From assembly GCF_009671205.1 (NCBI RefSeq), contig NZ_CP045309.1, positions 3,844,001 to 3,908,000 on the forward strand: a stretch of 64,000 nucleotides of DNA, given 5' to 3'. This document shows, in pieces, positions 7,759 to 51,578 of this stretch. The first letter of the stretch is position 1. Each line of letters opens with the position of its first letter. Position numbers and translations under genes: made by a program. The notes below the pieces were generated by a model, which searched no databases, was not told the DNA's origin, and saw only the letters and a program-made list of their open reading frames with translations. Source of the stretch: Micromonospora terminaliae. Lineage in GTDB: Bacteria; Actinomycetota; Actinomycetes; Mycobacteriales; Micromonosporaceae.

Positions 7759-9045
7759 TCAGGGCGTGAGGCGGTGCAGGTCCCGGGGGAAGGCGGTCAC
7801 CTCCCGCACGTTGGCCGCGCCGGTGAGCCGGGCCACGAAGCGTTCCAGCCCGATGGCGAAGCCCCCGTGCGGCGGCATGCCGTGCCGGAACGCGTCCACG
7901 TACCCGGCGTACGGCTCCACGGGCTCGCCGCGGGCCGCCAGGGCGGCCAGGTAGTCCTCGTGGCGGTGCAGCCGCTGCCCGCCGGTGACCAGCTCCATCC
8001 CCCGGAACAGCAGGTCGAAGCCGTTGGAGTACGCGGGCCGGGCCGGGTCCGGGTGGGTGTAGAACGGCCGCTTCGCCATCGGGTACCCGGTCACGAAGAG
8101 GAAGTCCGAGCCGTGCTCGCGCAGCGCCCACTCCCCCAGCGCCCGCTCGTGCGCCGGGGCGAGGTCCGGCTCGTCGGCCGGCGCTCCGGCGATCTTCAGC
8201 GCCTCGGTGAAGTGCACGGCCGGGATCTCGGCGGGCACCTCCGGCAGGGCCAGGCCCAGGGTGGCGAGCGCCCCGTCGGCCCGCCCCGCGACCTCGGCCA
8301 GCATCCCGGCCAGCGTCTCCCGCAGCACGGCCATCACGTCCCGGTGGTCGGTGACGAAGCCCAGCTCGACGTCGAGCGAGGTGTACTGGGCCAGGTGCCG
8401 GACCGTGTCGTGCGGCTCGGCCCGGAACACCGGCCCGACCTCGTAGACCCGCTCGAAGACGCCGACCATGAGCTGCTTGTAGAACTGCGGCGACTGGGCC
8501 AGGTACGCGGGCCGGCCGAACCAGTCCAGCGCGAACACGTTCGCCCCGCTCTCGGTGGACGACGCCACCACCTTCGGGGTGTGGACCTCCACGAACCCGC
8601 GGGCGTCCAGGGCGGCCCGGAAGCCGGCCACGGCCGCCGCCGAGATCCGCAGCGCGGCGGCGCGGGCCGGGTGGCGCAGCGCGGTCGGCGCGTGGTCGAG
8701 CTGGGTGGGCAGGGTGGCGGTGAGCACCGGCCGGTACAGGTCGAACGGCGGCGGGACGGCGGGCGGGCCGAGCGGTCGTACCGCCGGCTCGGCCAGCTCG
8801 ACCCCGGCGGGCGCGGTGGCGTTCGCGACCACCGTGCCGGTGACCTCGACGACGGTCTCCTCGGGCAGCGACTCGACGGCCGCGCGCACGGCGGCGTCGG
8901 TGACCACCACCTGGGCCAGGCCCGCGGCGTCCCGGACGATCAGGAAGGCCACCGACTTGAGCAGCCGGCGGCGGTGCACCCAGCCGGCGATCCGCACGGT
9001 CGCGCCGACGTGGTGGGTGAGCTGGGAGGACAGGATGCGTTGCAC
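7759..9045 (-). CDS. aspS: Archaeal-type aspartate--tRNA(Asp/Asn) ligase
   Basis: 428 aa class IIb synthetase that charges tRNA with aspartate. It has an N-terminal OB-fold (VRIAGWVHRRR...FLIVRD) and the class II core: VEVHTPKVVASSTESGANVF, YLAQSPQFYKQ, motif 2 FRAEPHDTVRH and motif 3 GGFAIGLERF. It lacks the ~100-residue GAD insertion and the ~590-aa length of the bacterial AspRS, so it is the archaeal/eukaryotic type and probably a second AspRS of this genome. His24 (GWVH) and Pro79 (TAPAGVE) stand where discriminating archaeal enzymes have Trp and Lys, so it may also aspartylate tRNA-Asn (inference). The GTG at 9045 has GAGGAGG 8 nt upstream; longer frames would run into the T-box leader. 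Confidence 0.9.
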   Translation of the reverse strand: MQRILSSQLTHHVGATVRIAGWVHRRRLLKSVAFLIVRDAAGLAQVVVTDAAVRAAVESLPEETVVEVTGTVVANATAPAGVELAEPAVRPLGPPAVPPPFDLYRPVLTATLPTQLDHAPTALRHPARAAALRISAAAVAGFRAALDARGFVEVHTPKVVASSTESGANVFALDWFGRPAYLAQSPQFYKQLMVGVFERVYEVGPVFRAEPHDTVRHLAQYTSLDVELGFVTDHRDVMAVLRETLAGMLAEVAGRADGALATLGLALPEVPAEIPAVHFTEALKIAGAPADEPDLAPAHERALGEWALREHGSDFLFVTGYPMAKRPFYTHPDPARPAYSNGFDLLFRGMELVTGGQRLHRHEDYLAALAARGEPVEPYAGYVDAFRHGMPPHGGFAIGLERFVARLTGAANVREVTAFPRDLHRLTP

Positions 9046-9324
9046 GGCGGTTACCTCCTCGATCAATCGCAACGCGATCCCCGGGAGGTGTGGGCGAGCG
9101 GGAAACCTCGCGGTGCCACCACACCTTCGCCCCGCGCGTGGCGGGGCCTCGTTCGGTCGCCTTTTCACCGGGGCCAGCCGGGCGGGTTCTACTGGGCGCG
9201 GACGCCGTTCTTCCCGCAGCTCGGGAGGGTCTTCGCGGCCCGGCGCCAGACCGCCTTCCAGCAACCGGCGGCTCTCTGCGCTGGCGGGTCGGGTCGCTAC
9301 TCGGCTCCGTCGCAGCTCTGCCGG
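9046..9324 (-). promoter_or_regulatory. T-box riboswitch leader of aspS, predicted translational type, Asp specifier
   Basis: Read on the minus strand. Stem I has the specifier-loop AGTA (9301-9298), a distal arm with AGAGAG...GCTGGAA (9276-9255) and the return strand GCGAA-GAC-CCTCCCGAGC. GAC (9231-9229) aligns with the specifier of B. subtilis glyQS, at the same distance from GAGC. The antisequestrator is exact: AGGTGTGG (9126-9119), bulge TGGCACC (9118-9112), GCGAG, 8-nt loop, CTCGC, CCACACCT (9093-9086). The bulge TGGC pairs with tRNA ending GCCA, that is discriminator G, as in tRNA-Asp. ACCTCC (9089-9084) can instead pair with the Shine-Dalgarno GGAGGT (9058-9053), and this competes with the antisequestrator. 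No U-run is present, so control is probably at translation. The 5' end is a guess from a TAGCGT -10-like box. Confidence 0.85.
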
Positions 9325-9457
9325 GCACGCTAGCACCCTTCCGCGGCTCTTGTGACGGGGATTTCTGGTGGCTCGTGTCCGGTGTCACATCGTTCGGGGC
9401 GTGACGCCGGTCGCCCGACGTTCATCGACGGCCGCCGACCGGCGTAGGCTCGGTTTC

Positions 9458-10447
9458 GTGACGATCGAGCACTCCGCGCCGACGACTGAGCAGGCAGCGC
9501 CCACCGCGACGGTTGCACCCGAGGGGCGGCGCATGCTGCGGATCGAGGCGCGCAACGCCGAGACGCCGATCGAGCGCAAGCCGCCGTGGATCAAGGTCAA
9601 GGCCAAGATGGGCCCGGAGTACACCCAGCTGCGCGGGCTCGTCTCGCGCGAGGGGCTGCACACCGTCTGCCAGGAGGCCGGCTGCCCCAACATCTACGAG
9701 TGCTGGGAGGACCGGGAGGCCACCTTCCTCATCGGTGGCGACCAGTGCACCCGGCGCTGCGACTTCTGCCAGATCGACACGGGCAAGCCCGCCGAGTTCG
9801 ACGCCGACGAGCCCCGCCGCGTCGCCGAGTCGGTCGCCGCCATGGGCCTGCGCTACGCCACCATCACCGGCGTGGCCCGCGACGACCTGCCCGACGGCGG
9901 CGCCTGGCTCTACGCCGAGACGGTCCGGCAGATCCACGCCCTGCAGTCCGGCTGCGGCGTCGAGCTGCTGATCCCCGACTTCAACGCGGTGCCCGAGCAG
10001 CTCGCCGAGGTCTTCGGGTCCCGGCCCGAGGTGCTCGCGCACAACGTGGAGACCGTGCCGCGGATCTTCAAGCGGATCCGCCCGGCGTTCCGCTACGAGC
10101 GTTCCCTCGACGTGATCCGCCAGGCGCGCGCCGACGGCCTGGTCACCAAGAGCAACCTGATCCTCGGCATGGGCGAGGAGCGGGCCGAGGTCTCCCAGGC
10201 ACTGCGCGACCTGCACGAGGCCGGCTGCGAGCTGATCACCATCACGCAGTACCTGCGCCCCTCCCCCCGGCACCACCCGGTCACCCGCTGGGTCAAGCCG
10301 GAGGAGTTCGTCGAGCTGCGCGAGGAGGCCGAGGAGATCGGCTTCGCCGGCGTGATGAGCGGCCCGCTGGTCCGCTCGTCGTACCGGGCCGGACGGCTCT
10401 ACCAGCAGGCGCTCGCTGCCCGCGACGAGGTCGTGGCCGCCGGCTGA
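9458..10447 (+). CDS. lipA: Lipoyl synthase (radical SAM)
   Basis: Inserts two sulfurs into protein-bound octanoyl groups, completing lipoate made by LipB. 329 aa. The auxiliary cluster cysteines are Cys71, Cys76 and Cys82 ([12 protein letters not shown]) and the radical-SAM cluster is Cys97, Cys101 and Cys104 (CTRRCDFC). The C-terminal RSSY motif is present (VRSSYRA). I chose the GTG at 9458 because TAGGCT (9445-9450) lies 7 nt upstream, a leaderless arrangement; a longer frame from 9368 would have 30 extra unconserved residues. It is divergent from the aspS T-box leader. Confidence 0.97.

Positions 10448-51153: not shown

Positions 51154-51578
<425 letters not shown>

Follow-up and report, generated by a model that had tools for sequence, protein, structure and literature searches.

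A predicted translational tRNA-Asp T-box before a second, archaeal-type aspS in Micromonospora

The leader of a second aspartyl-tRNA synthetase gene in Micromonospora terminaliae is very likely a translational T-box that responds to tRNA-Asp and controls an archaeal-type, probably non-discriminating AspRS. The gene, called here aspS2, lies on the minus strand of the window, the whole stretch of 64,000 nucleotides that was analyzed. Sequence comparison brings out the parts of the T-box, a specifier for Asp, a bulge that matches tRNAs with G73, covarying helices, and a link to a redundant AspRS. The binding of tRNA, the sensing of its charging, the direction of control, and the physiological trigger are proposed by analogy with known T-boxes.

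In the proposed mechanism, ACCUCC would pair with GGAGGU when tRNA-Asp is charged, and translation of aspS2 would be off. Uncharged tRNA-Asp would build up during aspartate shortage or when the housekeeping enzyme, AspRS1, fails or is inhibited. GAC in Stem I would be read by the GUC anticodon of this tRNA, and UGGC in the bulge would pair with its GCCA end. Once bound, the tRNA would stabilize the antisequestrator, which would capture ACCUCC and free the ribosome site. The backup enzyme, AspRS2, would stay silent until charging of tRNA-Asp fails.

The leader and its synthetase gene

An original prediction, made from the sequence of the region, named an AGTA strand, AGAGAG, GCTGGAA, a GAC codon, an antisequestrator, and the bulge TGGCACC. 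Each of these can be located in the leader, which has the following features, given from the candidate promoter to the gene:

9327..9332, minus strand: TAGCGT, a -10-like hexamer and candidate leader promoter, from conservation of TAnnnT
9087..9322, minus strand: T-box leader as matched by RF00230 (51.5 bits, E 1.8e-10, model 1-219)
9219..9316, minus strand: Stem I, long form, with base stem; both-side changes in 16 of 26 pairs
9298..9301, minus strand: AGUA, specifier loop, 5' strand; no variation in the 47 aligned leaders
9272..9277, minus strand: AGAGAG, bulge in the distal part of Stem I, one half of the elbow-binding motif; AGAGA invariant in the 47 aligned
9256..9262, minus strand: GCUGGAA, distal Stem I loop, the other half of the elbow-binding motif, from sequence
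9229..9231, minus strand: GAC, specifier codon (Asp) on the 3' specifier strand, aligning with AUC of ileS T-boxes
9182..9217, minus strand: Stem II with S-turn-like AGUAGA (9193-9188), from sequence and the RF00230 alignment
9129..9147, minus strand: Stem III, from the RF00230 alignment
9086..9126, minus strand: antisequestrator, A1 9126-9119/9093-9086 and A2 9111-9107/9098-9094; 99.4% paired, with covariation
9112..9118, minus strand: T-box bulge UGGCACC, whose UGGC can pair with tRNA GCCA; UGGN in 116 of 118 leaders
9084..9089, minus strand: ACCUCC, anti-Shine-Dalgarno overlapping the A1 3' arm, from complementarity and folding
9053..9058, minus strand: GGAGGU, Shine-Dalgarno (SD), from sequence and folding
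7759..9045, minus strand: aspS2, archaeal-type AspRS of 428 aa, start GTG (9045-9043), matching NF003483, best PDB match 1n9w

The specifier codon stands in a GAA-GAC stretch at 9234-9229, and the antisequestrator and the sequestrator have 9089-9086 in common. In the rows of the aligned leaders GCTG of the distal loop can be read by eye, and the last bases of the loop vary. No Stem II with AGUAGA is seen in five Actinoplanes-type leaders. The pattern TAnnnT lies 30-33 nt 5' of AGTA in 72 of the 75 long-Stem-I leaders from the window and the best 80 of 384 relatives, a count made without a shuffle control. A consensus scan returned no sigma-70 site at the leader, and the -10 element is therefore proposed from its conservation. 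The element lies just 5' of Stem I, not inside 9046-9130, where a transcription start would speak against the T-box.

In a covariance-model search RF00230 matches the leader over the full model at 51.5 bits (E 1.8e-10 in a search of 471 bases, E 6.1e-10 in a genome-wide search). This is below the family's gathering score, 93, so no T-box is listed in the default window scan. The sole entry of that scan is a bacterial RNase P class A RNA at 51158-51570 on the minus strand (273.6 bits). No T-box reaches the gathering score in 41 relatives or in 118 genomes of the class, ileS T-boxes included (the two sets overlap, and stricter filters were applied). The cut-off says little for actinobacterial T-boxes.

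The synthetase downstream is archaeal in type, as had been predicted. In a profile search its product matches NF003483, aspartate--tRNA(Asn) ligase, at 535.5 bits (cut-off 353) and falls just short with TIGR00458 (344 bits, cut-off 368.4); the best match among solved structures is AspRS2 of Thermus thermophilus, 1n9w. Residue H24 is kept in 90 of 90 AspRS2 orthologues and P79 in 88 of 90, and the residues examined in motifs 2 and 3 are nearly unchanged. At the corresponding places 1n9w and 1wyd have His and Pro, and 1b8a has Trp and Lys. This His and Pro pair in the anticodon-binding domain is what we take to be the signature of a non-discriminating AspRS, and aspS2 thus probably encodes an enzyme of that type alongside the housekeeping AspRS1. 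AspRS1 and gatB are both encoded in the M. terminaliae genome, and the matches to AspRS2 there include no AsnRS. With this set of genes AspRS2 is probably dispensable for making Asn-tRNA, and AspRS1 would already have to serve tRNA-Asn.

Specifier, bulge, and the identity of the tRNA

The assignment to Asp draws on a comparison with isoleucine T-boxes and on a broad count of aspS2 leaders. The 37 ileS T-boxes read, out of a longer list of matches, all have the bulge UGGU and all have AUC at the place where the aspS2 leaders have GAC. These comprise 36 with ileS downstream by tblastn and L117, for which TIGR00392 is the best family; AUC was scored by script in 36 of the 37, and L105, which the script missed, was scored by eye. 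The Asp specifier is upheld by this correspondence and by the match between codon and gene: AGUA and GAC in a covarying Stem I are followed by a gene for AspRS. The base 3' of GAC in the window leader is C. Specifier codons of T-boxes are usually followed by a purine. L117 itself (G000:C1:4208016, minus strand) is the ileS T-box of the same M. terminaliae genome, with an ultrashort Stem I and the bulge TGGT, and two Stem I architectures are thus found within one genome.

The leaders counted number 128 (the window, 80 named, 36 from the family, and 11 others), of which 118 differ from one another around the bulge; the count omits L154 and L155 as well as the G046 gene with its interruption, and three of the 36 family leaders duplicate named loci. 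The long Stem I with GAAGAC is present in 98 of the 118 distinct leaders, which supports conservation of the specifier among relatives. GAC is also invariant in the 47 aligned leaders, but these were picked with a pattern that contains GAC. The remaining 20 consist of four losses of Stem I, L266, and 15 leaders with a short Stem I, and there is no case of a long Stem I with another codon. Stem I has been lost in L029, L065, and L078, where the rest of the T-box persists, and in L014, where the bulge is gone as well. The bulge of L078 has changed from ACC to ATC (TGGCATC). In L266 no T-box is found within 430 bases upstream of aspS2.

Several Micromonospora carry a palindromic repeat, some 60-70 bp long (AAGGAAGGGCCCCC...TTAACGCCT...), within the T-box leader or immediately 5' of it. 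A loose pattern for it matches 13 of 80 aspS2 upstream stretches. It occupies the place of the missing Stem I in L029, L065, and L078, and in L014 the antisequestrator is gone too. The repeat resembles a MITE.

UGGN is retained in 116 of the 118 distinct leaders, as UGGC in 103 and UGGU in 13; L014 and L266 have no bulge. The UGGU group (L067, L074, L075, L076, L161, L232, L238, L239, L243, L250, L254, L255, and L257) could pair with G73 only through a U-G wobble. The claim that TGGC calls for a tRNA ending in GCCA agrees with the tRNAs of the same genome, where both tRNA-Asp and tRNA-Asn have G73. A73 is found in the tRNAs for Ile, Glu-UUC, Lys, Arg-UCU, and in two for Pro-UGG, and U73 in three Thr tRNAs. 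When the codons in the neighboring registers are compared (GAA, AAG, AGA, GAC, ACC, and CCC), only GAC fits UGGC among the tRNAs read, a set from which Pro-GGG is excluded. On sequence grounds the bulge would not tell tRNA-Asp from tRNA-Asn, and it is the GAC specifier that does so.

Another explanation, in which the ligand is tRNA-Asn, is very improbable. Such a ligand would share G73 and would suit an enzyme with the non-discriminating His and Pro pair in a genome with gatB and with no AsnRS among the AspRS2 matches. Against this, GAC stands in the long Stem I of the 98 leaders, a long Stem I bearing another codon is absent from the remaining 20, and neither AAC nor AAU occurs at or overlapping the specifier place in the window. 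Leaders from Catellatospora do show a readable AAT, yet they also allow a hairpin that has GAC in its loop.

Hairpins of this kind would extend the tRNA-Asp reading to the 15 leaders whose Stem I is short. A GAC-loop hairpin is possible in most of them, on unrelated stems, such as GGAG-CAGACA-CUCC in L160, GUCAUGG-UGUGACGC-CCAUGAC in L259, and CCGG-UUGACGC-CCGG in L257. In 10 of the 15 a script found UGAC in the loop of a stem with at least four pairs, placed at the Stem I position or close to it. Two further hairpins were found by eye, in L160, where the default fold agrees, and in L163, where it disagrees; no simple GAC hairpin is seen in L247, L254, and L265. The default fold also pairs part of GAC in L070, L073, and L162. 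Single hairpins are not significant against shuffled sequences, with equal or better stability in 4-71 of 200 shuffles for 14 of the 15 leaders and no GAC-loop hairpin in L254, in a test that took the best such hairpin of each leader, sometimes not one at Stem I. The argument from these hairpins is a purely comparative one.

Conservation, folding, and the mode of control

The helices were examined in the window and in the leaders of 80 named loci, those that ranked best among 384 relatives; thinning left 47 of 75 long-Stem-I leaders and 51 of 80 leaders with an antisequestrator. The structures were drawn from the window and from these same alignments, which biases the percentages of pairing towards them and the double changes less so. 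In Stem I, 96.2% of cells are paired (n=47), against 39-47% in slid controls. Changes on both sides are found in 16 of its 26 pairs, against 6.0 in shuffles, and none of 500 shuffles matches this, so the covariation anticipated for Stem I is present in the relatives. The antisequestrator (n=51) has 99.4% of cells paired and both-side changes in 4 of 13 pairs, with 1.0 expected from shuffling and 0 of 500 shuffles reaching that number.

The predicted pairing of ACCTCC with GGAGGT stands in part. Its inner four pairs form in 47-51 of 51 leaders and folding supports it; the outer two pairs form in 28 of 50 and 26 of 51 relatives and are thus missing in about half. In this helix (n=51) 82.3% of cells are paired, with zero both-side changes and a result no better than shuffles. 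The lack of covariation is expected if the ribosome fixes the SD, and it leaves the off state without that kind of support. The off state is a prediction from folding and conservation.

Free folding of the whole leader gives no signal against shuffled sequences (z = +1.05, with 174 of 200 shuffles at least as stable). This makes the minimum free energy uninformative for the whole leader, and comparative analysis was used instead. The 3' part of the leaders was folded with ViennaRNA, with 100 shuffles of the linker for the window. The free fold of the window 3' part has -37.1 kcal/mol, 4.5 kcal/mol better than the -32.6 kcal/mol reached with the antisequestrator, and in it the SD is completely paired. 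The mean unpaired probability of GGAG is 0.00 in the free fold and 0.34 when the antisequestrator is imposed. With the 5' arm of A1 blocked it is again 0.00, against an average of 0.39 with the linker shuffled.

The same calculation for the 80 leaders gives a mean unpaired SD of 0.20 in the free fold and 0.43 with the antisequestrator, falling to 0.09 when the arm is blocked. In 70 of the 80 the gain in SD opening from the A1-arm-blocked state to the antisequestrator exceeds 0.2, and in the other 10 it is 0.2 or less. In the 46 leaders with a short linker the SD is unpaired at 0.04 in the free fold and 0.37 with the antisequestrator. The corresponding values for the 34 with a long linker are 0.42 and 0.52, with an energy gap of 0.8 kcal/mol, and switching in this class is predicted to be weak.

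These folds fit the translational mode that had been proposed. Transcription termination is the common mode of T-boxes in Firmicutes, which would be the reason to expect it here, but 8980-9480 contains no terminator-like site on either strand and the alternative hairpin buries the SD instead, making control by termination very improbable. Equally hard to credit is a decayed T-box that has lost its function: the RF00230 score is below gathering, and among relatives at least Stem I has been lost in L014, L029, L065, and L078 and no T-box is found in the 430 bases upstream in L266, while the window leader has all parts, its helices covary, and UGGN is retained in 116 of 118 distinct leaders, L078 with its changed ACC among them.

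Distribution, known systems, and possible role

The tRNA-Asp T-box follows the redundant AspRS across the class. An enzyme like AspRS2 (E <= 1e-60) is encoded in 17 of 197 genomes, with an identity of at least 64% in 13, of 40% in one, and of 36-37% in three. The T-box lies directly before the gene in 12 of the 13 high-identity genomes and likewise in the one at 40%. In the 13th, G046, the T-box and the start of the gene are cut off from the remaining gene by an interruption. At this locus (G046:C895; L165 and L214) aspS2 appears to break off near residue 91 and to resume a few kb later, and the T-box lies upstream. All 14 genomes with a T-box encode a bacterial-type AspRS1 above the cut-off as well. 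In the three genomes at 36-37% there is no AspRS1 above the cut-off and no T-box in the 380 bases upstream. The T-box goes with a redundant AspRS2 (14 of 14) and not with a sole archaeal-type AspRS (0 of 3). Within the family, aspS2 is found in 91 of 121 genomes (E <= 1e-100), which marks it as common but dispensable. The leaders of 36 of these 91 were sampled, about one per genus, and the T-box core is kept in 35. A search of 396 genomes of the phylum with the pattern GAAGACNCYYCBGAG proved too loose, with matches in 142, and the four hits inspected are unrelated to T-boxes.

The conserved unit is the T-box with aspS2. Neighbors downstream of the gene differ between the 16 loci compared, for which neighboring open reading frames were chosen by third-position GC and at most six shown per locus. 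An efflux or resistance operon with the downstream gene for an FUSC_2 membrane protein (7703-6657, PF13515) was considered and rejected; that gene adjoins aspS2 only at L001, and the 15 other loci have different neighbors, mostly on the opposite strand as judged by eye.

Translational T-boxes upstream of ileS in Actinobacteria were reportedly described by Sherwood et al. in 2015. These elements likewise have an SD-sequestering hairpin in place of a terminator. They differ in having AUC and UGGU where the aspS2 leaders have GAC and mostly UGGC. Stem I is ultrashort in the ileS T-box of the same genome and long before aspS2, although many of the other ileS T-boxes read are long too. Translational T-boxes before ileS are established in Actinobacteria (PMC1262725), PMC7583486 gives a canonical long Stem I to only a few translational T-boxes, and PMC2494555 counts 32 actinobacterial T-boxes.

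A T-box for Asp was called unusual in the original prediction; ileS is the target found described in this group, yet the element is not a one-off, with UGGN kept in 116 of 118 aspS2 leaders. No report of an Asp T-box in Actinobacteria was found in the literature searched, and the element may already stand in the tables of TBDB. This T-box stands before a spare aspS in many relatives, so the role of a familiar class of switch reaches beyond isoleucine here. The T-box repertoire found described for actinobacteria, that of ileS, is extended to a second amino acid, and the switch is tied to a redundant synthetase.

Related arrangements are known outside the phylum. In Bacillus subtilis thrZ encodes a second synthetase that is normally silent and controlled by a T-box. 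As is proposed for aspS2, it is a spare synthetase turned on by the uncharged cognate tRNA; it differs in amino acid, phylum, and its transcriptional control. T-boxes for Asp are known as well: Asp is listed with the two-codon families in PMC7778990, and a T-box precedes one of three aspS genes in Clostridium acetobutylicum (PMC2494555). As in the window, one of several AspRS genes is under a T-box there, but C. acetobutylicum belongs to a different phylum, the Firmicutes, and control in the window is predicted to be translational. The AspRS2 enzymes of T. thermophilus and Deinococcus radiodurans are likewise second and archaeal-type, and 1n9w shares H24 and P79. PMC4206432 states that both organisms also possess AsnRS and calls a second AspRS in bacteria rare. 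M. terminaliae differs from them in that no AsnRS was found and its AspRS2 is under a T-box.

We tentatively suggest, as a possibility less likely to be right than wrong, that actinomycetes carry a widespread and patchy emergency module. A spare AspRS2 would be kept silent under a tRNA-Asp T-box and turned on when AspRS1 fails, for example under an AspRS inhibitor, while, inside a single gene family, Stem I is remodeled from a long, elbow-binding form to an ultrashort hairpin with GAC and the G73-matching bulge kept. A literature search returned nothing specific on resistance to AspRS inhibitors as the trigger. The aspS2 T-box offers a concrete test of why actinomycetes retain a second AspRS, and the long, short, Stem-I-less, and T-box-less leaders form a natural series for finding the parts that a translational T-box requires.

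A separate observation concerns the small second contig of the M. terminaliae genome (G000), which has two inverted copies (C2:5775-5786 and C2:7017-7028) of a stretch of the main contig (C1:171220-171231). The copies L108, L122, and L123 are identical over the approximately 100 bases compared.
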